Shown here in pieces: positions 12,506 through 52,961 of a stretch of DNA of 64,000 nucleotides. Origin of the DNA: a virus. Every line of letters begins with the position of its first letter. The first letter of the stretch is position 1. A model generated the notes under the pieces. It saw nothing but the letters and a program-made list of their open reading frames with translations. It was not told where the DNA came from and ran no database searches. The stretch covers positions 1 to 64,000 of IMG/VR virus record IMGVR_UViG_3300044739_000018, one strand, 5' to 3'. Both the position numbers and the translations under genes were made by a program.

Positions 12506-13254
12506 TGGCTAACGAGAAGCGCAAGCGCCAAATTGCTGTCGGTGGTCTGATTGAGGACAACCCTCTGACCAGCGGTGCTACCACGCTCACGTCTGCGGGC
12601 TTGTCTGCTGTCATCGGAGGGGTTGCGTCGACGGAGCACCTTGCAGTCGTTCTGGATCCGGACGGCACGTATGGAGCGCCCGAGATTGCCTATGTGACGA
12701 CTCTGACGGACGGCGGAACCTCTGGCACCGTGGCGCGGGGCCAGGAGGGCACCACCGCCCGCGAGCATCTGCGAGATGTGCCCTGGATCCATGCAGCGAC
12801 CCTGCGGGACTACCTGAAGATGTGCAAGGCCGTCAGGGACGGCGGCGGCACTGTCACCATCACTTCGACTACGCGCACGCCTGTGGACTCCACCAACTTG
12901 CCCTTTGTGTACTTCGACTGTGAAGTCGGAGACATTGTGGAGTGCCAGTTCGCCTTCGGAGCCAACGTCACGGGAGGTGGTAACGGTTACGTGGACGTGG
13001 AAGTTGACCGACCCACGTCAGCCAACACCTACGTCGCCAATGCCAACGATGACGGTATCGCCGCATGGAGGAACGTGGCTGGTCCCGTCCATGCCGTGGG
13101 TGTGTTCACGATCACTGAACGCGGACGACACGGGTTTCGGCCTGTTGCATTCCGGTCGGGTGGAACCTCGGTGCAACTAGAGAACGCTGCTTCCGGCACT
13201 GCCGATACTCCCATCACCTTCATTGCTAAGAACCTTGGGCCGGAGAGTGCGTAA
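12505..13254 (+). CDS. Minor tail protein
   Basis: 249 residues; ATG overlaps the previous TAA. The N-terminal half (LAVVLDPDGTYGAPEIAYVT, GTVARGQEGTTAREHL) is a motif common in actinophage minor tail proteins: a short beta unit with an RGQEGT-A turn. The C-terminal 140 residues look like a C1q/TNF-like jelly roll (TGGGNGYVDVEVDRP; VFTITERGRHGFRP), often a receptor-binding trimer head. Confidence 0.6.
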   Translation: MANEKRKRQIAVGGLIEDNPLTSGATTLTSAGLSAVIGGVASTEHLAVVLDPDGTYGAPEIAYVTTLTDGGTSGTVARGQEGTTAREHLRDVPWIHAATLRDYLKMCKAVRDGGGTVTITSTTRTPVDSTNLPFVYFDCEVGDIVECQFAFGANVTGGGNGYVDVEVDRPTSANTYVANANDDGIAAWRNVAGPVHAVGVFTITERGRHGFRPVAFRSGGTSVQLENAASGTADTPITFIAKNLGPESA

Positions 13255-14045
13255 TGGCGTCGATGCTCCAAGAGATGATGGCGGACTCTCCGATCCACCT
13301 GTGGAAGTTCGATGCCTTGTCAGGAACCATTCCTGACGAGATTGGCTCATTGGAACTCGACAGTGTGTCGGGCCTGACCTACAACCAGACGGGGCCGGGA
13401 CCATACAAGTCGGTGCTGTTCTCCAACGGCAAGGCGAAGACCACCGCCAATAACGTGTCGCCCGATCCTACTGACATGACAGTCGAAGTGTGGGCACTGA
13501 CCAACACAACCATGTCCACAGGTGTGGGACAGACCGTCTGGTCTTGCTTCCAGAACACCGGGAACTCGTACGGCGGGTTCATCATTGATGCCAACGGCCA
13601 GGCTGCCCTTGGAGTGTCTGGTTCCCCACGTTTCGTGATTGGCAAGCACCTCACCGGAGATCCGTGGGCGCAGGTGGCTATTGATCAGCTTCTGACCACC
13701 GGCGTGTGGCATCACATCGTGTTCACGTTCGAAAACTCTACCGGTACTTCGAAGGCGTACAGGAACGGCACTTTGGAGAACACCCAGGTCGGTACTACTG
13801 GCGGCTCTCGTGCCACAATCAAGGGGCCGGTGCGCTTCGGCGGCTTCAGTGACGATTACCCGCAGTATTGGGACGGGAAGATCGGCCCGGCCGCGGTCTA
13901 CAACACCGTCCTGTCACAGCCACGCATCCAGGCGCACTATGACGCCCTCAACAACTCCATCGTTCCGCTGAATGACCGGTACCTCTCCGGCAGCGCGGAC
14001 GGAGGCCCGCATCGCATGGTGCCCAGCGGAGGGTTCGGTAGCTAA
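13254..14045 (+). CDS. Minor tail protein with LamG-like domain
   Basis: 263 residues. LamG pattern: IHLWKFDALSGTIPDEIG, MTVEVWALTNTTM, GGFIIDANGQAALGVSG, GVWHHIVFTFENSTGTSKAY, RFGGFSDDYPQYWDGKIGPA. The C-terminus carries a short module (PLNDRYLSG..DGGPHRMV) that recurs at the end of the gene at 15076-15933. Probably a surface-binding adhesin. Confidence 0.75.
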   Translation: MASMLQEMMADSPIHLWKFDALSGTIPDEIGSLELDSVSGLTYNQTGPGPYKSVLFSNGKAKTTANNVSPDPTDMTVEVWALTNTTMSTGVGQTVWSCFQNTGNSYGGFIIDANGQAALGVSGSPRFVIGKHLTGDPWAQVAIDQLLTTGVWHHIVFTFENSTGTSKAYRNGTLENTQVGTTGGSRATIKGPVRFGGFSDDYPQYWDGKIGPAAVYNTVLSQPRIQAHYDALNNSIVPLNDRYLSGSADGGPHRMVPSGGFGS

Positions 14046-15076
14046 TGCCCTACGGAACCGTCCAATACGCTGGCGCATACCAGCTCCGCACTACGGCTAC
14101 AGTTACACACACTGGGTCTGTAGTCATGGCGGGAACCGCCACCCTAACGGCAATCTCCTCCGAAGTAGTTTCGTTCTCTTACACCGGAGCGTCCACAACA
14201 TGGACAGTGCCTACGGGAGTTACAACTATTAGCGTCGATGCTTACGGCGCTGCTGGTGGACCCATCACTGCTGAGGTTTACACGCCGGGCTACGGCGGGC
14301 GTGTGAAGTGTGATCTCACGGTAACGCCCGGCGAGGTGCTGCAAATCAACGTTGGTGGACAAGGGGCTACTGGCACGATTGGAGGCTCCGGGGTTGCCGG
14401 TGGTTGGAACGGCGGAGGCGCAAGCGGCAACGGCGCGAGTGGTGGGGGTGGTGCTACTGACGTTCGTAGGGGAGCGTACGCCCTGGCTGACCGCCTGGTG
14501 GTTGGTCCTGCCGGTGGCGGTATCGGTGGTAACGGTAGTGGAACCAACGTCGGCCACGGTCACACTCCAACTGGGGCGAATGGCACGACTGCCGGGGCAC
14601 AGCCTGGTGGTGCTGGTGGTACTTCGAGTGCTGGTGGCGCGGGCGGCAATGGACCGGAGCAAGATGGTTCGCCGGGAACTCTTGGCACGGGTGGTGCTGG
14701 TGCTAATGGGTCTGGTCCTCGCCATGGCGGCGGTGGCGGTGCGGGGTACTACGGCGGCGGCGGTGGTGCTGGGTCCAGCACGCCGGGTCAGTCCGGTGGA
14801 GGCGGTGGCGGCGGCTCCGGACTGAGCACGGGAGTGAATGCAACCCTAACCAGTGGAGTTCGCACCACCGATGGCCTTTTGGTCATCTCCTACCTGCCAG
14901 TGACCAACCAGGTCACGATGGCCGGTATCAGCACCATGACTGTCATGTGGGCCGGACTGGTCACTGGCAGCGTGGCGATGAGCGGATCAGCAGCCATGAC
15001 CACATCGGGATCAGTTACTTCCGGCTTCGCGTTTGCTGCCCGCATGGGACCACTCCTGATTGGCAGGCGGTCTTAA
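14045..15076 (+). CDS. Glycine-rich minor tail protein 1
   Basis: 343 residues. A beta domain (FSYTGASTTWTVPTGVTTIS) is followed by a region with more than half glycine (GNGASGGGGATDVRRGAYAL and similar) likely to form a polyglycine-II or collagen-like bundle, then a short Thr/Met-rich repeat (VTMAGISTMTVMWAGLVTGS; VAMSGSAAMTTSGS). It is a tandem paralogue of the next gene: both share VPxGVTT, VTPGExLQINVGGQGA, ALADRLV and GLSTGV blocks. Adhesion tips of this type occur in phages of several hosts. Confidence 0.75.
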   Translation: MPYGTVQYAGAYQLRTTATVTHTGSVVMAGTATLTAISSEVVSFSYTGASTTWTVPTGVTTISVDAYGAAGGPITAEVYTPGYGGRVKCDLTVTPGEVLQINVGGQGATGTIGGSGVAGGWNGGGASGNGASGGGGATDVRRGAYALADRLVVGPAGGGIGGNGSGTNVGHGHTPTGANGTTAGAQPGGAGGTSSAGGAGGNGPEQDGSPGTLGTGGAGANGSGPRHGGGGGAGYYGGGGGAGSSTPGQSGGGGGGGSGLSTGVNATLTSGVRTTDGLLVISYLPVTNQVTMAGISTMTVMWAGLVTGSVAMSGSAAMTTSGSVTSGFAFAARMGPLLIGRRS

Positions 15077-15933
15077 TGGCAACGACAACTCTCAGCTATA
15101 CGGGTTCGGCTCAGACGTGGCAGGTGCCAGCGGGCGTAACCACTGTCACTGTTGACGTGAAGGGGGCGCAGGGCGGCAAAGCGGCCGGTGCTGCCGGAGA
15201 ATATGGTGGCAAGGGTGGTCGGGTCCAGTGCAACTTGACCGTTACCCCAGGCGAGACGCTCCAGATCAACGTTGGTGGACAGGGTGCTCAGGGCATCAAC
15301 TCGGGCAGTCCTGCTGCTGGCTGGAATGGCGGCGGCGTTGGATACCAAGCTGGTGGCTCAGGTGGCGGCGGAACGGACATTCGTAATGGCTCCTACGCTC
15401 TAGCAGATCGACTGGTCATCGCTGGCGGCGGGGGCGGTCAAGGTGGATACGGGTCAGGTGGAGCTGGCGGCGGCAGCGCGTCTGTTGACAACTCGACCTC
15501 TGGTATCGGCGGCACGCCATCTGGTGGAGCCGGAGCGGCGGCGCTCTCAGGCTGGGGTGGTGGTGGCGGTGGCACAAACTCTGCTGGCGGCGCTGGAAAT
15601 ACCAGCGACCCCTTCAGTGGTGACGGCTTCAGCGGCTCGCTTGGACAAGGTGGTGCCGGTGGAGGGCAGGGTGGGGGTAGCAACGGCGGCGGAGGCGGCG
15701 GAGGCGGTCGCTACGGAGGGGGCGGTGGAGCAGGCAACGCCAACGCTACCTACGGTTCGGGTGGTGGAGGTGGAGGCTCGGGCCTCTCAACGGGTGTTGC
15801 CGAGACGCTGACGAGCGGGTTCAAGACGGGCAACGGTGAGGTTGTCCTGACCTGGACGGCACCCGATCCCCTCAACAATCGTTACAGGGCAGATCACGTC
15901 GATGGTGGCCCCCATCGAATGGTGCTCGGCTAG
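15076..15933 (+). CDS. Glycine-rich minor tail protein 2
   Basis: 285 residues from the ATG overlapping the TAA of its neighbour; an upstream in-frame start at 14947 is rejected. Same architecture as the preceding gene: LSYTGSAQTWQVPAGVTTVT, LTVTPGETLQINVGGQGAQG, then long glycine-rich runs. Its last 20 residues (NNRYRADHVDGGPHRMVLG) replace the Thr/Met repeat and match the end of the LamG protein at 13254. Last of the tail genes. Confidence 0.75.
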   Translation: MATTTLSYTGSAQTWQVPAGVTTVTVDVKGAQGGKAAGAAGEYGGKGGRVQCNLTVTPGETLQINVGGQGAQGINSGSPAAGWNGGGVGYQAGGSGGGGTDIRNGSYALADRLVIAGGGGGQGGYGSGGAGGGSASVDNSTSGIGGTPSGGAGAAALSGWGGGGGGTNSAGGAGNTSDPFSGDGFSGSLGQGGAGGGQGGGSNGGGGGGGGRYGGGGGAGNANATYGSGGGGGGSGLSTGVAETLTSGFKTGNGEVVLTWTAPDPLNNRYRADHVDGGPHRMVLG

Positions 15934-15962
15934 TGCCGAAGGTATCTATGAGGTGATGCCTC

Positions 15963-16166
15963 ATGGCCCAGAGAGAGCAGAAGACCAAGACGGCGGCACG
16001 GTCAAAGAAGGCTGAGGCTGTCGAGGAAGACCCGCCCAAGTCTGAGCACCGTTCTGCCGAAGACCTCAAGGCAGAGATGGATGATCTGCTAGACAACATT
16101 GACGAGGTTCTTGAGGAAAATGCTGCCGATTTCGTGGCTGGCTATATCCAGAAGGGCGGTCAGTGA
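15963..16166 (+). CDS. pup: Prokaryotic ubiquitin-like protein Pup, phage-encoded
   Basis: 67 residues, the usual length of Pup (about 60-70). The N-terminal 30 residues are charged and disordered-looking. Residues 35-67 match the actinobacterial Pup signature: LLDNIDEVLEENAADFVAGY followed by IQKGGQ. In the family, the helix L-D-x-I-D-x-V-L-E-E-N-A-x-D-F-V binds the Mpa/ARC coiled coil, the PafA ligase and the Dop enzyme, and the C-terminal Gly-Gly-Gln is deamidated by Dop to Glu before ligation to lysines. All of these elements are present, with Ile for Val before Gln-Lys. No PafA, Dop, Mpa or proteasome gene is in the window, so it would rely on host enzymes. It has its own GAGGTGA ribosome site and lies between tail and lysis genes. 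It could act as a decoy, as a tag modifying host or virion proteins, or as a replacement for host Pup. Confidence 0.92.
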   Translation: MAQREQKTKTAARSKKAEAVEEDPPKSEHRSAEDLKAEMDDLLDNIDEVLEENAADFVAGYIQKGGQ

Positions 16167-16300
16167 CCGAGGAGTGCCAGGACTGCCAGCGGCTTGAGAA
16201 AGAGCTTGCGGAGTGGAAGGAACTCGCCCAGCACTGGCGGCGCAAGTTCGGTGAGAGCGAGCGCGCCCGCATGACCAACAAGCAAAGGTCGGGCGGCTGA
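16163..16300 (+). CDS. Small Pup-coupled protein, unknown
   Basis: 45 residues from GTG; the GTGA overlaps the Pup stop, so translation is coupled. It begins TEECQDCQRLEKELAEWKE, a CxxC pair in front of a short charged helix, and ends KQRSGG, two glycines at the C-terminus. It is too short for family assignment. The tight coupling suggests a role connected with Pup, but it may simply be a small tail or lysis-region gene. Confidence 0.6.
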   Translation: MTEECQDCQRLEKELAEWKELAQHWRRKFGESERARMTNKQRSGG

Positions 16301-16310
16301 GGCGACTGTT

Positions 16311-16329
16311 GAGCGCCCGTGAGGCGCTC
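16311..16329 (+). terminator. Hairpin after the Pup genes
   Basis: GAGCGCC and GGCGCTC form a perfect 7-bp stem with a 5-base loop, ten bases after the stop of the small Pup-coupled gene. No U-tract. It may end or attenuate the tail transcript before the lysis genes. Confidence 0.5.
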
Positions 16330-16363
16330 CATTAGCACCCTTGCTCTTGCCGACAACGTAGGC

Positions 16364-16606
16364 ATGGTAAGCAAAGAGCGGGTGCGAGGTGTTCACACCT
16401 GGCTGTCTGCTGCCAGAACACAGAAGGCCATCAATGGCTGGCTGGCCGTGGGCTGGTTGGCCTTTGGTCTCATGGGCGTTTGGACCGACCTAAAGGACTC
16501 CATTCCAGTCCTGTTCTTCATCTCTGTGTACGCCAACACGGCAGGCCATTGGGCTGCCTGGGAGGCAGCAAAGTCCGAGGTCCGAGAAGAACAGGTCACA
16601 ACGTGA
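16364..16606 (+). CDS. Small membrane protein, holin candidate
   Basis: 80 residues from ATG at 16364; a GTG at 16319 inside the hairpin is rejected. Two hydrophobic segments: about residues 24-41 (GWLAVGWLAFGLMGVW) and 46-62 (PVLFFISVYANTAGHWAAW), followed by a charged tail. Size, two-TM topology and position before the endolysin genes fit a holin. Several other membrane proteins nearby compete for that role. Confidence 0.55.
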   Translation: MVSKERVRGVHTWLSAARTQKAINGWLAVGWLAFGLMGVWTDLKDSIPVLFFISVYANTAGHWAAWEAAKSEVREEQVTT

Positions 16607-16615
16607 GGATGACCG

Positions 16616-16801
16616 ATGCCGCGCACCCTAACCCGGGCGGGCTGGACCGACGCTGATGGCGTAGCTCGTCTCGTCGTCTTGTGTGTGGCCTGCGCTGCCG
16701 AGCTAAAGGCAAAGCGCAAGTGCTTCGTGCGACCGTTTGGTGCGGGCACGGGTGAGTGTGAACTGTGTAACTACGAACTGAGGCGGGAGGTCGTTGAATG
16801 A
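16616..16801 (+). CDS. Zinc-ribbon mini-protein
   Basis: 61 residues. CVACAAELKAKRKC and CELCNYELR give two Cys pairs, a likely single zinc ribbon. Starts with MPRTLTRAGWTDADG. Overlaps the next gene by the ATGA junction. Function unknown; one of many such mini-proteins in the genome. Confidence 0.55.
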   Translation: MPRTLTRAGWTDADGVARLVVLCVACAAELKAKRKCFVRPFGAGTGECELCNYELRREVVE

Positions 16802-17565
16802 AGTGGTGGCAGAGGTGGTGGCGTAGTTGGTTCCCGCAGGCCCATCGGCATGAGCCAGCAGAACTCAAGGATGGCACAGTCGTACAAGACCGGCGCCTTG
16901 ACCGGATTCCCCAGTTCGACGCACGAAGCCTGAACTTCCCGGTTCGGACCCTGATCCCCCAGGCGTATCCTCCGCGCTCCTACACGTGGTCGGTGCCAGT
17001 CAACCTGAATCAAGGTGCCGAAGGAGCTTGTGTTGGCTTCGGCTTTGCCCACGAACTTGCAGCGAGACCGGCGTCGGTGCCGGGCATGACCAATGACTTT
17101 GCCAGGCAGAAGATCTACTGGCGGGCACAGCAACTCGATCCCTGGGCCGGAGGTGCTTACCCAAACGCCAACCCCTTCTATGAGGGAACGTCCGTTCTGG
17201 CGGGGGCACAGGTCTGCACCAAGGAACTCAAGCTCTATGGCGCATACCACTGGGCCTTCAGCCTGGATGACGTGATCATGGCCCTCGGCTACAAGGGTCC
17301 CGTGGTCCTCGGTGTCAACTGGTACGAGGGCATGTGGGACACCGATGCCCTGGGCTTCATACGAGTCCGTGGTGCCCTCGTGGGCGGGCATTGCATTTTG
17401 GCCCATGCCGTGGACCTGCGGAACAAGCGGGTCAGTCTGTTCAATTCCTGGGGCAAGAACTGGGGCATAGGTGGGAAAGCCTGGATCAGCTTTGCCGACC
17501 TCGACAGGCTGCTAAAGGAGCAGGGAGAGGCTTGTGTGCCCACACTGAGGGTAGTTAAGGCTTAG
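16798..17565 (+). CDS. Papain-like (C1 family) cysteine peptidase
   Basis: 255 residues. The papain triad can be seen: Cys in GAEGACVGFGFAHE (about residue 76), His in VGGHCILAHAV (about 197) and Asn in SLFNSWGKNWG (about 220), with the usual spacing. Members in actinophages sit in the lysis cassette and are thought to cleave peptidoglycan peptides or process virion proteins. No signal peptide; a basic Trp-rich start (KWWQRWWRSWF) could bind membrane or wall. It lies between Pup and the amidase. Whether it acts on wall peptides or proteins cannot be told from sequence. Confidence 0.75.
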   Translation: MKWWQRWWRSWFPQAHRHEPAELKDGTVVQDRRLDRIPQFDARSLNFPVRTLIPQAYPPRSYTWSVPVNLNQGAEGACVGFGFAHELAARPASVPGMTNDFARQKIYWRAQQLDPWAGGAYPNANPFYEGTSVLAGAQVCTKELKLYGAYHWAFSLDDVIMALGYKGPVVLGVNWYEGMWDTDALGFIRVRGALVGGHCILAHAVDLRNKRVSLFNSWGKNWGIGGKAWISFADLDRLLKEQGEACVPTLRVVKA

Positions 17566-17622: not shown

Positions 17623-17751
17623 GTGAGTGAACAAGAAAACCCTCCGGTCGATGAAGACGAACTCGATGGCTGTGACCTGGAGTTTGACGAGGCCGTAACG
17701 GACGAAGAAATCCGGGAGCTTGTGGTTCCCGAGGATCAGGAGAAGGTCTAA
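17623..17751 (+). CDS. Small acidic protein, unknown
   Basis: 42 residues from GTG at 17623, preceded by a good CTGGAGG site. Strongly acidic (VDEDELDGCDLEFDEAV). The stop overlaps the ATG of the endolysin (TAATG), which suggests translational coupling. Confidence 0.55.
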   Translation: MSEQENPPVDEDELDGCDLEFDEAVTDEEIRELVVPEDQEKV

Positions 17752-18638
17752 TGGGGCGCGCCCTCTGGCTCCCGGACCTGCTCCGGCAGTACGGCGTGGA
17801 GGTAATCGAGGTTGCGGGTTGGCGCGAGCGTGGCTCTGCCACCTTCAATCCGCAAGTCATTGTGGCCCACCACACAGCCAACCCCAACCTGGCTGACATG
17901 CCGAGCCTCAACCTCCTCATCAACGGACGTTCGGGGCTTCCTGGACCACTGTGCCAGGTGGGTCTGTCGCGCTCCGGCAAGGCGTACATCGTTGCCTCTG
18001 GACGGGCCAACCATGCGGGCACCGGGAGTTGGCGCGGTGTCTCCGGCAACACGAATGCCCTGGGCATCGAGGCCGAGAACAACGGCACCGGTGAGCCGTG
18101 GCCCGCCGCGCAACTTGAGGCGTACTTCCGGGTTGCTGGCGCCATGTGCGACGGCACCACGCCCATGCGGGGAGCCGAATGGGTTTGCGGCCATAAGGAG
18201 TGGGCACCGAGCCGCAAGATCGACCCCAAGAACATCGACATGAACTGGTTCCGGGACCAGGTGGCACAGCGCCGGGCAGCGAAGCACGCTGGCACCCTGG
18301 GTGGCACAGTCAACCCGACCCCGCCTCCGCCCCCGCCTCCGCCACCGCCGCCTGCTCACTCCCACCCGACGCCGCTGGTCAAGAACGCCCCGGTGAATGG
18401 TGTCTGGCGCGGGCAGGTGTACCACCCCGAAGCTGGCAAGTGGTTCGTCCAGGCCAGCACGGCATGGTGGGAGATTCGTGACATTCAGCAGCATCTCAAG
18501 AACCAGGGTCATCAGATCGCCGTCGATGGATTCGGCGGTCCCACCACCAATCACCACATCGTCACGTACCAGCGTGCCCGGGGCCTGTCGGCTGATGGCG
18601 TTGTTGGGCCTGCGACGTGGGCACGGTTGCACGGCTGA
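17751..18638 (+). CDS. Endolysin: N-acetylmuramoyl-L-alanine amidase with peptidoglycan-binding domain
   Basis: 295 residues. Residues about 25-170 form an amidase_2/PGRP-type domain: VIVAHHTANPN (zinc His), GLSRSGKAYIVASGRANHAG, NTNALGIEAENNGTG, and GHKEWAPSRKIDP (second zinc site and catalytic region). A proline-rich linker follows at about 185-205. The C-terminal 65 residues are a PG_binding_1 domain (IRDIQQHLKNQGH, VDGFGGPTT, VGPATWARLHG). It cuts the bond between muramic acid and the stem peptide at lysis. No signal peptide, so holin-dependent release is likely. Confidence 0.92.
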   Translation: MGRALWLPDLLRQYGVEVIEVAGWRERGSATFNPQVIVAHHTANPNLADMPSLNLLINGRSGLPGPLCQVGLSRSGKAYIVASGRANHAGTGSWRGVSGNTNALGIEAENNGTGEPWPAAQLEAYFRVAGAMCDGTTPMRGAEWVCGHKEWAPSRKIDPKNIDMNWFRDQVAQRRAAKHAGTLGGTVNPTPPPPPPPPPPPAHSHPTPLVKNAPVNGVWRGQVYHPEAGKWFVQASTAWWEIRDIQQHLKNQGHQIAVDGFGGPTTNHHIVTYQRARGLSADGVVGPATWARLHG

Positions 18639-23062: not shown

Positions 23063-23512
23063 ATGGCTGAGTTCGTACTAACAGAGGCGCAGGCAAGCGA
23101 CAAGAAGGAGTTCGAACCGCTCCCCGATGGCCTGGTGGTAGAGGCAGAGCTTCTCTCCGTCACGGTCAAGCCCAAGAAGATCAGGGGCGAGGACATGGAG
23201 CGGGTGGAGTTTGCTTTCAAGATCGTTGACGGCGACTTCAAGAACCGTAGGGTCTGGGGCGACACGTCCACGGCCTTTGTGGATCACCCCGAGTGCCGCC
23301 TGCGGGCATGGACCCAGGAAATCATGGGCGTTGACTTGCCCAAGGGGTTCAAGCTGGACACTGACGCGCTGGTTGGCTCGCGTTGCCGGGTTGCCATTTC
23401 GGCATACGAGTGGGAGCCGAAGGATGCACCCGGCACTACGAAGCATGGTGCCCGCGTCCAGGACGTGATCCGCAGCAAGTCTCAGCTTGGCATGTCGGAG
23501 GAGCCGTTCTAA
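23063..23512 (+). CDS. SSB-like single-strand DNA-binding protein (DUF669-type)
   Basis: 149 residues. OB-like core (GLVVEAELLSVTVKPKKI, RVEFAFKIVDGDFKNRRVWG) and an acidic tail ending in MSEEPF, comparable to the DxxPF tip by which bacterial SSB recruits partners. It follows the Sak4-like gene, a pairing often seen in phages where Sak4 depends on the co-encoded SSB. Confidence 0.7.
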   Translation: MAEFVLTEAQASDKKEFEPLPDGLVVEAELLSVTVKPKKIRGEDMERVEFAFKIVDGDFKNRRVWGDTSTAFVDHPECRLRAWTQEIMGVDLPKGFKLDTDALVGSRCRVAISAYEWEPKDAPGTTKHGARVQDVIRSKSQLGMSEEPF

Positions 23513-23820
23513 TGGACGAACTTCAGGACATCGCTGTGCGCTGGCACGTGAAGCGGTTCCCTGAGGCTGGCCCCGAGCACGTCTGCATGAAGGCGACGGA
23601 GGAGTTGGGTGAACTTGCTGGCGCGGTCAACGGCCGCGTCGGCAAGAACGCCCCACGAGCACGAGGCGATGTGGGCGAGGAGGCAGCCGATGTGCTCATC
23701 ACGGTGATGATTCTGCTTGGCCGCTACTACCCCGAATACTCGTTGATGGACGAGGTAGCCAAGAAACTGGCGATCCTCACCGATCCTGAGAGCGGGCATA
23801 GGTCGGCTGCCCTGGCATGA
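23512..23820 (+). CDS. MazG-like nucleotide pyrophosphohydrolase
   Basis: 102 residues from the ATG overlapping the previous TAA. MazG metal motif: KATEELGELAGAVNGRV then GDVGEEAADVLITVMILLGR (E-E-x2-E ... E-x2-D). Single-domain MazG proteins hydrolyse (d)NTPs to monophosphates, or ppGpp. In phages with modified purines a MazG-type enzyme supplies dGMP, which is relevant to the PurA/PurZ-like gene at 45280-46605. Confidence 0.85.
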   Translation: MDELQDIAVRWHVKRFPEAGPEHVCMKATEELGELAGAVNGRVGKNAPRARGDVGEEAADVLITVMILLGRYYPEYSLMDEVAKKLAILTDPESGHRSAALA

Positions 23821-32981: not shown

Positions 32982-33162
32982 CGCCCACTTCTCCCTGTCC
33001 GTATGGAATGCAGAAGGCGAGCAGATCGACCGACAGTCGAAGCTCACGGTGTGGGACGCGGTGGCGCAGGCGCAGGCAGCGCAAGACCGCGGATGGATGG
33101 CGAAGGTGACACCCATGGTGCCCGAGAAGGTGCAACTACGGACGCGCCGTAGGAAAATTTAG
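32971..33162 (+). CDS. Hypothetical protein, last plus-strand gene of the operon
   Basis: 63 residues from a TTG start that overlaps the previous gene. Small alpha/beta pattern (FSLSVWNAEGEQIDRQSKLT; VWDAVAQAQAAQDRGWMAKV). Converges with the first minus-strand gene. Confidence 0.45.
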   Translation: MTSNAHFSLSVWNAEGEQIDRQSKLTVWDAVAQAQAAQDRGWMAKVTPMVPEKVQLRTRRRKI

Positions 33163-33199
33163 CCCCCGGGAACTTGGGACTTTGAGTGTTGATTCAACG
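33154..33199 (-). repeat. 47-bp element, copy 1
   Basis: Read on the minus strand: TTGAATCAACACTCAA, then a CCC...CCCGGGGGC stem-like stretch, then TAAATTTTCC. It covers the last codons of the minus-strand gene at 33159 (encoding ALNQHSKSQVPGG) and the end of the converging plus-strand gene. Three related copies lie at 42315, 47562 and 52175. Confidence 0.6.
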
Positions 33200-42314: not shown

Positions 42315-42360
42315 CGAAAATTTGCCACCCCGAAGCTCGGGAGTCCCAGTGTTGACTTAC
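42315..42360 (-). repeat. 47-bp element, copy 2
   Basis: Minus strand: AGTCAACACTGGGACTCCCG, then AGCTTCGGGGTGG and CAAATTTTCG; CCCGA..TCGGG forms a stem. It starts at the stop codon of the gene at 42357-42560 and lies upstream of the SWIM promoter. Confidence 0.6.
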
Positions 42361-42560
42361 GGAGCGGGCGGCTCCAGGATGGCCCGGATCAGTTCTTCTG
42401 TGAGGAAGTCCAGACCTGTCGCATCTTGGTTGACCAGCTTGTCGTTGCGCTCCAGCACGGCACGCACGTTGATGCGCAGCATGGGGGCGATGGCTTGGAA
42501 CAACTGCTGTTGCATGTTGCTCAGCATGTTCAGGAAGTCGGGCGGTAGGTCAGGTTCCAT
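42357..42560 (-). CDS. Small helical protein
   Basis: 67 residues (PPDFLNMLSNMQQQLFQAIA; FLTEELIRAILEPPAP). Amphipathic helices, no motif. Stop abuts the 47-bp element. Confidence 0.5.
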   Translation of the reverse strand: MEPDLPPDFLNMLSNMQQQLFQAIAPMLRINVRAVLERNDKLVNQDATGLDFLTEELIRAILEPPAP

Positions 42561-44937: not shown

Positions 44938-45308
44938 TAGAAATCACCTCCGCCGCCACCACCGGAGTCGAAGCTGCCTCCGCCCGAGTCGTATGAGGAC
45001 CCCGAGTCGTAGCTGCTCCCACCACTGTCGTAAGACGAGCCGCCCCCGTCGTAACCGGACGAGCCGCTGTCGCCGCTGGAGGACTCGGAGCTGGTCTCGG
45101 CCGGGGCACACTCGGTGCTGGCCTCAGAGGCCGTCTCCGTGGCCTCAGGGGCACAATCAGCGTCCCGAGGCTCCTGGTCGGTCCTGTTGGAGTTGTCGAT
45201 GTAGAGCGGGTTCACGTACCCCGGGTGGAGCATGGTGTTGGTGGTCGTCTGCTGCACGAAGGGCCTACTCGCGGGCCGGTTACGCCGACGCCGAAACCAG
45301 TTTCTCAT
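44937..45308 (-). CDS. Low-complexity Ser/Tyr/Asp/Gly repeat protein
   Basis: 123 residues from the ATG with AAGGAGGAAGG. Basic start (MRNWFRRRRNRPASRPF), then from about residue 85 tandem repeats of the type SSYDSGG and a Gly/Asp-rich end. The Tyr-spaced repeats resemble phase-separating low-complexity regions. Overlaps the end of the purA-like gene. Confidence 0.55.
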   Translation of the reverse strand: MRNWFRRRRNRPASRPFVQQTTTNTMLHPGYVNPLYIDNSNRTDQEPRDADCAPEATETASEASTECAPAETSSESSSGDSGSSGYDGGGSSYDSGGSSYDSGSSYDSGGGSFDSGGGGGGDF

Positions 45309-46605
45309 TGCCTTCCTCCTTGAAGAATGAACGTTGAAGTACTCGTGTCTCGTGGGCTGTCGGTCCATAGGATGTCAGGACCACGGGCCTGCTCAGGTGA
45401 TGCTCGATCATGTCAAGGTACGCCGACTTCGACACGTTCGTCAGGACCGGCAGGAAGTCCTTCATCAGCAGCGTGGTGTCACGCCCGCCGAGGTAGTAGT
45501 CACCCGGCACGACGCCACTCGGAGCGTCGTAGCTGGTGCAGATCGGCATGCCTTCGTCGGGCACGCGGTCCATGTGGGTGACAGCGAGGCCGTCAACGTC
45601 GCTGGCTGTGATGGCGTACTGCAACACGGGTAGGTCCAGGTGGCCGTTGCGCCATGCTCCCTGCCAAACGCCCGCCCCGTTGTGCAGCTCGGGAATGTCT
45701 CGCGTCATGTGGAAGTCCTCGGTCACCATCGGACCCGGGCCATGCCTCGTGGTGTAGGAGCGGATCACACCAAGGACGGTGACGTTGCGCCGCGTTCCGG
45801 TACCACTCAGCAACTCCAGGGCGTTGTGTCGTGTGGTCTTGGACCACGTGGTGTAGGGGTGGAAGCCGAACTGTTCATCCAGCAGCACGCCCTGTGCCCC
45901 CTCGAACACGATGTTCTCGTAGTTGCGAAGCGGATTGCCTGCCTCGATCTGAACGACGTTGCCGAAGTCAGCGTAGGCGTCCAGCCATTCCTTCATCTTC
46001 GGGTAGAGAATGTTCTCCATGGCCTGGCCCCACATGTCCTTGTCCACCGTGCGGGGCACTTCGAACTCGCCCACCGCATCCTTGGCGTACCGGAGGAATC
46101 GTTCCAGCATGACCTGAGAAAGCACTCGGTCAGTCAGGTGTCCGACGCGCAGGACTGATTCCCACCCGGAATGCGACTGGTGGATGCGTCCTTCTCCGAC
46201 ACCCTCACCCGTGGACCCATGCCGGTCAATCCCTCGGCTCAGTTCCCGCAGTCGATTGAGCGACTTGTGGGCGGGCGTGAGGACCATGGCTCGCGTGTCG
46301 ACGTGCAGCATGGAGAACGGGTCCTTCACGCCTACCGAACGCAGGTGCTCGGCTTCCTTGAAGGCGTTGAGGGGGTTCACCATCATGAACTTCGACAGGT
46401 AGGTCGAGGACCCGGCAAGTGTGCCCGCACCGAACTGCGAGAAGGTGTGGTGCTTGCCATCCCACGTCACCACGTTGTGAGCGGCTTGTGGCCCGCCGCA
46501 ATAGCGGACCACAAGCGCGCCTCTCTGCTGACGACAGAGGAAGTCAACAACCTTCCCCTTGCCAGCGTCACCAAAGCCAAGGTCAACAACGACCGTTGCC
46601 TTCAT
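45280..46605 (-). CDS. Adenylosuccinate synthetase family protein (PurA/PurZ-like)
   Basis: 441 residues, full length for PurA. P-loop VVDLGFGDAGKGKVVDFL keeps Asp13 and Lys16 (E. coli numbering) but has Ala in place of Glu14. The His loop reads RYCGGPQAAHNVV, so catalytic His is kept while the Asn of HNAGH is Gln. GSTGEGVGEG corresponds to GTTGRGIGPA; later VFEGAQGVLLDEQFGFHPY matches VMFEGAQG. PurA joins IMP and Asp; phage PurZ relatives use dGMP to make 2-aminoadenine precursors and usually replace Asp13 by Ser or Gly. This protein is intermediate, so substrate cannot be settled here. A MazG gene and an RNR are in the same genome; no DatZ was seen. Confidence 0.85.
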   Translation of the reverse strand: MKATVVVDLGFGDAGKGKVVDFLCRQQRGALVVRYCGGPQAAHNVVTWDGKHHTFSQFGAGTLAGSSTYLSKFMMVNPLNAFKEAEHLRSVGVKDPFSMLHVDTRAMVLTPAHKSLNRLRELSRGIDRHGSTGEGVGEGRIHQSHSGWESVLRVGHLTDRVLSQVMLERFLRYAKDAVGEFEVPRTVDKDMWGQAMENILYPKMKEWLDAYADFGNVVQIEAGNPLRNYENIVFEGAQGVLLDEQFGFHPYTTWSKTTRHNALELLSGTGTRRNVTVLGVIRSYTTRHGPGPMVTEDFHMTRDIPELHNGAGVWQGAWRNGHLDLPVLQYAITASDVDGLAVTHMDRVPDEGMPICTSYDAPSGVVPGDYYLGGRDTTLLMKDFLPVLTNVSKSAYLDMIEHHLSRPVVLTSYGPTAHETRVLQRSFFKEEGNEKLVSASA

Positions 46606-47540: not shown

Positions 47541-47815
47541 CAGCTTTCTCCTTGGTTGTGTTCGAAATTTCGCCCCACCGGGGGTTGAGAGTCTGAGTGT
47601 TGACTCTCGTTGATGAGGGTCCGTTGCTGCCGAAGAAGCAGCCAGAAGTACAGCCACCCAAACGGGACCATGAATAGGCCCATCACGAAGGCGTCAGCCC
47701 AGCCGATGTCCGCGGCCCACCCGCTAAAGGCGATGTTCACCAAGCCGGTGAGTGTGCAGGCACCGATGCTGCCAAGCAGTCCGTGAAGGACTGGTCGTTC
47801 GTGGAGCAAGCTCAT
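47540..47815 (-). CDS. Small membrane protein ending in the 47-bp element
   Basis: 91 residues from ATG 47815. Two TM segments (LLGSIGACTLTGLVNIAFSG; AFVMGLFMVPFGWLYFWLLL). The last 20 residues (ESQHSDSQPPVGRNFEHN) are encoded by the repeat element. Confidence 0.55.
   Translation of the reverse strand: MSLLHERPVLHGLLGSIGACTLTGLVNIAFSGWAADIGWADAFVMGLFMVPFGWLYFWLLLRQQRTLINESQHSDSQPPVGRNFEHNQGES
47562..47610 (-). repeat. 47-bp element, copy 3
   Basis: Minus strand: GAGAGTCAACACTCAGACTC, TCAACCCCCGGTGGGGCG, AAATTTCG. CCCC/GGGG can pair. Occupies the end of the small membrane gene, about 25 bases before the vWA gene. Confidence 0.6.
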
Positions 47816-52174: not shown

Positions 52175-52961
52175 CGGAATTTTGCCCCACCGAGAGTTGG
52201 GAGGTTGAGTGTTGATTCAACATCCCCTTCACGACCTCGGTCTTGCGGGCCTCCAGGTCGATCACTCGCTGTTCCAGAACGGGCGTTAGCGAGAGCACTT
52301 GTGTGACTTCCGCCAGTACGGCCTCGACCTCGGGCAAGTTGCCCGTCTCCACCGTCTCGTCGATGCGAGACAGCAGGGAGGCAAAAGACGACTCGGGGTT
52401 GAGCGCGACAGGAAGCGCGTCATCCATCATGTCGTTGACCTTGTGTCCGTCGTCGGCCTCGCGCTGCATGAGCAGGCGGGCCTTGGCGACCGCGTCCTGC
52501 TTCGTGCGGGCAAGAGTGTGGAGCGAGTAGCCCAGGTGATTGCCCTTGCTGCTCACGCGTCGGACACCCACGGCGTAGTGCTGCATGTTGTACCACTGCG
52601 CGTGGTTCCCGGCCGCCCCCAACAGCCATCCCTTGTAGCGGGTGCCCTTCACGAAATCTTCCGCGCCTGCGTAAGAGCGTGAGAACACGTAGATCTGCCA
52701 CTCGACTCGCGGCTTGCGGACTACGCCAACGGGGATGATCTCGTCGTCAGGCAGGTCCAACGAATCCAGGTGCTGCCGCCAATAGCGGCTTGTGGCCTTG
52801 CCGATCTGGCCGTCCCTCTTGTAGCGGGTGTAGAACTGCGCTCCACAGTCGCAGACCCAGTAGACGTTGTACTGGTTGATCTGCGTCTCAGTCAGACTGT
52901 GCCCTGGCCTGCCAGGGGCGAATCCAACCTCTGCGGCGGTCTTGCCGGTGAGTGTCGCCAT
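52161..52961 (-). CDS. Hypothetical protein with N-terminal zinc-like patch
   Basis: 266 residues (VYWVCDCGAQFYTRYKRDGQ; GWLLGAAGNHAQWYNMQHYA; long C-terminal helices EVEAVLAEVTQVLSLTPVLE). Its last 20 residues (LNQHSTSQLSVGQNSDANV) are the 47-bp element. Confidence 0.55.
   Translation of the reverse strand: MATLTGKTAAEVGFAPGRPGHSLTETQINQYNVYWVCDCGAQFYTRYKRDGQIGKATSRYWRQHLDSLDLPDDEIIPVGVVRKPRVEWQIYVFSRSYAGAEDFVKGTRYKGWLLGAAGNHAQWYNMQHYAVGVRRVSSKGNHLGYSLHTLARTKQDAVAKARLLMQREADDGHKVNDMMDDALPVALNPESSFASLLSRIDETVETGNLPEVEAVLAEVTQVLSLTPVLEQRVIDLEARKTEVVKGMLNQHSTSQLSVGQNSDANV
52175..52222 (-). repeat. 47-bp element, copy 4
   Basis: Minus strand: GTTGAATCAACACTCAACCT, CCCAACTCTCGGTGGGGC, AAAATTCCG, ending just before the ATG of the C2H2 gene. 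Shares GTTGAATCAACACTCAA with copy 1. Confidence 0.6.

Follow-up and report, generated by a model that had tools for sequence, protein, structure and literature searches.

The 67-aa ORF at 15963-16166 (+) of the window, the 64,000-base stretch analysed here, is with near certainty a member of the Pup (prokaryotic ubiquitin-like protein) family, its profile match lying far beyond chance. The window comprises bases 1-64000 of a 163,481-base IMG/VR virus record (G000), which belongs to a large tailed phage. Judged by its residues, this phage gene on balance probably makes a fully functional Pup that would feed the pupylation pathway of the host itself, with degradation maintained or redirected. 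Dozens of phages carry Pup without the enzymes that attach it, which suggests that phages steer the protein-destruction machinery of their hosts.

Identification of Pup in the window

The ORF starts with ATG at 15963 and ends with TGA at 16164-16166, and its translation is MAQREQKTKTAARSKKAEAVEEDPPKSEHRSAEDLKAEMDDLLDNIDEVLEENAADFVAGYIQKGGQ. Direct reading of the sequence places a Shine-Dalgarno-like GAGGTGA (15950-15956, +) 6 bases 5' of the ATG. The earlier note had named the protein as Pup from the letters alone, and the profile search puts it inside the family, both curated cut-offs being exceeded. Pfam PF05639 (Pup) scores 67 bits (E=2.8e-18, cut-off 27), aligning residues 7-67 with positions 8-69 of a 69-position profile, that is, nearly all of it. 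The NCBIfam model TIGR03687, an equivalog_domain profile, scores 59.5 bits (E=2.2e-16, cut-off 41.45), and solved Mycobacterium Pup chains match the window Pup with E ~2e-10.

In the known pathway Dop deamidates Pup-Gln, PafA ligates it to lysines, and the coiled coil of Mpa binds it as a helix; the N-terminal tail of Pup threads into Mpa and the substrate is then degraded in the 20S core (PMC12288473, PMC8755798, PMC6476560). The C-terminus of the window Pup is IQKGGQ, the Gln form that needs Dop; QKGGQ is followed directly by the stop, leaving a free Gly-Gly-Gln. The core that serves PafA/Dop and the Mpa coiled coil (LLDxIDxVLEENAxxFV..YIQK) is kept at the sequence level, and the N-terminal tail is present, polar and of normal length. 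The claim that the protein holds all that Dop, PafA and Mpa require thus appears to hold at the level of residues. The core residues of Pup in the Mycobacterium Mpa-Pup-20S complex (PDB 7px9 and others) are likewise kept in the window protein. However, all parts of that complex come from one cell, whereas in the window case the tag alone is viral.

Genomic neighbourhood

Pup is present once in the 163,481-base record and sits within a same-strand stretch that leads from tail genes to lysis genes. Directly upstream is a glycine-rich tail/virion-type protein (14947-15933, +; phrog_33719, unknown function) that ends ~30 bases 5' of the Pup ATG. Downstream, the GTG start of a 45-aa ORF (16163-16300, +) overlaps the Pup stop as GTGA, and its translation has a coiled-coil look by eye. 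Next come a small membrane-type protein (16319-16606, +), which by its position is a candidate holin, a cysteine-peptidase-like protein (16798-17565, +; phrog_16701 'peptidase', E=1.3e-56), and an endolysin with an amidase and a peptidoglycan-binding part (17751-18638, +; phrog_880, E=6.6e-52). Beyond the endolysin are genes for a PD-(D/E)XK nuclease, a Sak4-like protein, a primase-helicase and ribonucleotide reductase. The placement of Pup between tail and lysis genes in a clear phage context is thus correct, with tail-type genes 5' and the peptidase and endolysin 3'.

At ~139.3-141.0 kb of the record there is a terminase-like ORF with a weak terminase-large-subunit match (phrog_5909, E=6e-5), and further same-strand ORFs extend from it to the record end. 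A late region may therefore run from the record end into the window.

Two other features of this neighbourhood were seen. The peptidase at 16798-17565, papain-like by eye, is an unusual lysis-cassette neighbour in its position between Pup and the endolysin. In addition, the C-terminal motif NxRYxxxxxDGGPHRMV is common to the neighbouring virion-type proteins at 13254-14045 and 14947-15933 (both +), and is perhaps an attachment or processing signal of both.

Absence of partner enzymes from Pup phages

No match to Pup_ligase (PF03136), the proteasome (PF00227) or Mpa (TIGR03689) was found in the whole 163,481-base record. Thus, the absence of pupylation enzymes and proteasome genes, reported in the earlier note for the window, is true of the entire record, and the complete Pup-proteasome gene cluster is lacking, as dop/pafA, Mpa/ARC and 20S are not encoded. 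Because these partners are absent, the Pup of the window phage must use host enzymes if it acts through pupylation. The proposal that the phage borrows the host pathway is to this extent supported, on condition that the Pup works.

For PafA/Dop and the 20S core, the same pattern is seen across the viral records that carry Pup. Whole-record profile searches found PafA/Dop in 0 of 51 viral Pup records, a PafA/Dop motif scan of all IMG/VR gave none confirmed, and a search of 38 viral records returned no 20S subunit. Within flanks of ~6 kb, Dop or PafA accompanies pup at 74 of 80 cellular loci vs 0 of 66 viral loci.

These counts bear on whether the record is a bacterial contig or provirus remnant and the gene simply the pup of a host. 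Mislabelling of this kind does occur, as the public 'phage' record MT835496.1 with a Pup match (L002, filed as 'Bacteriophage sp.') is bacterial. It was rejected as a Pup phage, since it is a bacterial stretch in which Mpa, Dop, Pup and PafA are adjacent; no 20S subunit was found in it. The window record, however, extends over 163 kb without Dop/PafA and has phage genes on both sides of Pup, making this explanation hardly credible. For the viral Pup hits in general, contamination is unlikely because their records are without Dop/PafA while 74 of 80 bacterial loci have them, and with none in any viral Pup record it was rejected as the source.

Distribution of Pup among phages

Beyond the window record, motif and profile scans gave 50 IMG/VR records with a Pup, all distinct contigs; these counts are lower bounds, as the scans require exact motif matches. 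A single-sequence scan of IMG/VR had confirmed none, the motif and profile scans then finding many. BLAST of Pup against isolated phages returned only Streptomyces phage Dagobah and one mislabelled bacterial contig, and BLAST with the Mycobacterium Pup core returned nothing. The low-complexity filter probably masks the Pup core, so absence from BLAST means little.

Dagobah is thus the one isolated phage with Pup, annotated as such (HUN42_00036, 'ubiquitin-like protein Pup', MT711977.1). Like the window phage it has a lone Pup without enzymes, in this case adjoining and following the endolysin. However, the Dagobah Pup differs in its length of 78 aa, in an extra helix-like stretch and in its end, QVGGE (Val in place of Lys, Glu form).

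Many of the Pup contigs are true phages. In L140 Pup follows terminase and portal, and an unassigned 311-aa gene separates it from the major head protein; in L137 terminase and portal precede Pup, after which comes the head protease. Pup lies upstream of terminase in L143 and L142, near an endolysin in L038 and near a portal in L039. In the T4-like Pup group, Pup stands between UvsY and a UvsW-type helicase, and the group also encodes major head protein, tail tube, a late sigma factor and an SbcD/SbcC-like pair. Replication/recombination neighbourhoods surround Pup in L133 and L134, in L044, and in the T4-like phages (UvsY-Pup-UvsW).

Pup might be placed on structural or scaffold proteins, which the host proteasome would then process or clear in head or tail assembly. 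The late-region position in the window phage and the head-module Pups of L140 and L137, with that of L143 upstream of terminase, would suit such a role. It is nevertheless quite improbable, since elsewhere Pup is near replication/recombination genes, as in the cases above, or after the endolysin (Dagobah), and there is no conserved structural partner gene. Indeed, no conserved partner gene of any kind was found adjoining Pup across phages, neighbours being common only within phage groups. The suggestion in the earlier note of action in the particle therefore does not hold as a general rule, since Pup is found in unrelated places from phage to phage, within the head module in some and close to replication genes in others. 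Its interpretation stands as regards family, phage-borne gene, kept elements and absent partner enzymes, while the purposes that it offered (tagging of host defences, competition with host Pup, marking of virions) are candidate roles.

Conservation and selection

The C-terminal GG(Q/E) is present in 35 of the 35 distinct viral Pups compared. Across this set N-15, F-11 and Q-5 are invariant, the D/L/V/E positions of the core that binds PafA/Dop and Mpa are near-invariant, and the constraint at most core positions comes close to that seen in 77 cellular Pups. Every true homologue from a pattern scan that did not require the C-terminus also ended GGQ or GGE. Viral Pups are 57-78 aa long (mean 65) and cellular ones 59-88 (mean 66); because total lengths match, the N-terminal tail needed for threading is of normal length in the viral proteins. 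The lysine share of these tails is 0.125 in viral vs 0.064 in cellular Pups, the cellular set being a biased sample of close matches. C-terminal Gln vs Glu was rejected as a discriminator of viral and cellular Pups, as the two are mixed in both sets.

Among the closest viral relatives, dN/dS is 0.05-0.35 in most estimable pairs. Viral Pups are under purifying selection, as seen from these close pairs. The elements of Pup needed for the known steps appear to be kept, and the viral gene shows signs of working.

Alternatively, abundant free phage Pup could occupy PafA, Dop or Mpa, as a decoy or competitor that spares phage proteins from tagging and degradation. A small protein is easily over-produced, the viral Pup records bring no enzymes, and the Gln end of the window Pup would occupy Dop first. 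Mycobacteriophage proteins are unusually lysine-poor, which has been read as pupylation avoidance and suggests that pupylation harms phages (PMC10665810); the same scarcity of lysine fits defence against pupylation as well as its use. However, a decoy would be free to shed its threading tail or the C-terminus used for ligation, and no viral Pup found has done so. Moreover, the Glu-ending form, already conjugation-ready, makes up 19 of the 35 distinct viral Pups, and free Pup is outcompeted by pupylated substrates at the proteasome (PMC6476560). Competition is thus possible but unlikely, and carrying Mpa, as described below, would not help it.

Phage-encoded Mpa

The T4-like Pup records 3300025886_001308 and 3300034418_008582 also encode a full-length Mpa/ARC ATPase, and they are the only Pup records with Mpa. 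Like the window record they have Pup without ligase or core proteasome, differing from it by the Mpa, which ends GQYL in both. The genes are at L156:267-1862 (-) and L157:13824-15425 (+), each ~10 kb from Pup, and the proteins score 616.6 and 586.3 bits with TIGR03689 (equivalog cut-off 504.75). The two share 70% identity; the first has 46-48% identity to cellular Mpa and aligns with solved Mpa over almost its full length. The Walker motifs and coiled-coil region align with those of cellular Mpa. Mpa docks on the 20S core through the motif GQYL (PMC12288473, PMC8755798).

A second lineage has Mpa without Pup, upstream of terminase (L162, L163, L164, L166, L168, L169 and L171), with ends GQYL or GMYL. 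The L163 terminase shares ~50% identity with the terminases of Streptomyces phage BRock and relatives. Six phage Mpa proteins score 586-658 bits against the TIGR03689 cut-off of 504.75; the phage ATPases are assigned to the Mpa/ARC family by this equivalog profile together with the C-terminal GQYL or GMYL. In isolated phages no full Mpa was found, the matches being other AAA proteins.

The combination of Pup and their own Mpa in T4-like phages favours driving degradation over competition or blocking. For the window phage this argument would apply by analogy, being carried over from other phages to a record without Mpa.

Relatives of the window phage and origins of viral Pup

The nearest relative, L036 (3300020203_000008, 136 kb), is collinear with the window phage and has Pup at the same junction. 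Tail genes are 42-52% and replication genes 37-55% identical between the two, and the Pups are 64% identical over residues 15-67, the L036 Pup ending GGE and the window Pup GGQ. In the tail-to-replication interval no gene but Pup has a counterpart; the rest, including the neighbouring tail and lysis genes, is replaced. No counterpart of the ORF at 16163-16300 was found in L036, where the neighbour of Pup differs. L184, a more distant cousin (primase 42% identical) with replication genes present, is without Pup, so Pup is not essential to the window phage group.

Phages pick up host genes, and the lack of Pup in L184 could be taken to mean that the window gene is a recently captured, unused host pup. 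However, viral Pups are old, divergent and under purifying selection, and in the L036 interval Pup is the sole shared gene where all else has been replaced. An idle passenger is therefore very improbable, the more so as the Pup tree, which has few columns, forces at least 4 viral/cellular switches and puts one viral Pup among those of Nitrospirota.

In that tree there are ~8 viral/cellular switches overall, at least 4 of them forced by well-supported branches. The Nitrospirota placement is that of the L042/L033 Pup, and the window Pup is left unplaced. As a test for one origin of viral Pups the tree was rejected for its shortage of columns; several changes are supported, but their details are not. 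It is most naturally read as repeated capture of Pup from different hosts.

Among cellular Pups, those of Acidimicrobiia (for example L053-L063) are the closest; they have 51-62% full-length identity to the window Pup and match it in length, GG(Q/E) end and two-helix core. In Acidimicrobiia, however, pup shares an operon with the genes for Mpa, Dop and PafA, whereas the phage gene is alone in a virion/lysis region. This nearest match is a weak hint as to the host of the window phage.

Proposed mechanism

Competition, a role in assembly and passive carriage all rank below a functional tag, which would act as follows. The phage Pup would be expressed from the tail-to-lysis stretch, and by this position probably late. 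Host Dop would convert its terminal Gln to Glu, and host PafA would then attach it to lysine residues in proteins of the host and/or the phage. Host Mpa would recognise the conjugates and thread them into the 20S of the host, a step to which some T4-like phages bring an Mpa with the docking motif. As a net effect, pupylation and proteasomal turnover may continue or rise after phage shutdown of host gene expression. The purpose we infer for phage Pup is that host proteins would be removed or amino acids released; amino-acid recycling is a proposed host role of the Pup-proteasome system (PMC8223512).

Novelty and significance

Pup itself was already known, and one isolate, Dagobah, has a lone phage Pup that was annotated without further comment. 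The paper that describes Dagobah (PMC7650747) makes no mention of Pup, and recent reviews of bacterial proteasomes (PMC12288473, PMC8223512) make no mention of phages. Within the open-access literature, with subscription papers and preprints outside its scope, no papers on phage Pup or phage Mpa were found.

Taken more widely, it could be that phages whose hosts possess Pup and belong to two or more phyla (Actinomycetota and, judging by the tree, Nitrospirota) repeatedly took Pup, Mpa or both, never the conjugating enzymes, and so control host protein destruction during infection, as a bacterial counterpart of animal viruses that exploit ubiquitin; this broader proposal might equally prove right or wrong. 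If true, recurrent enzyme-free viral Pup, together with viral Mpa in some lineages, would mean that phages contend over the Pup-proteasome system with Actinobacteria, which include major pathogens and antibiotic producers. Phage Pup also offers a simple way to ask about the role of pupylation during infection, and the question can be tested now because Dagobah infects Streptomyces coelicolor, which is a laboratory host.

Other features of the window

An adenylosuccinate synthetase homologue (PF00709) is encoded at 45280-46605 (-) of the window, and a MazG-like ORF, recognised by eye, at 23383-23820 (+). Together these raise the question of whether the window phage has a diaminopurine (Z) genome. 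A 44-base repeat is present four times (33155-33198, 42318-42361, 47566-47609 and 52178-52221), the copies being 64-77% alike. These repeats are spaced over the second half of the window and may be promoters or regulator sites.
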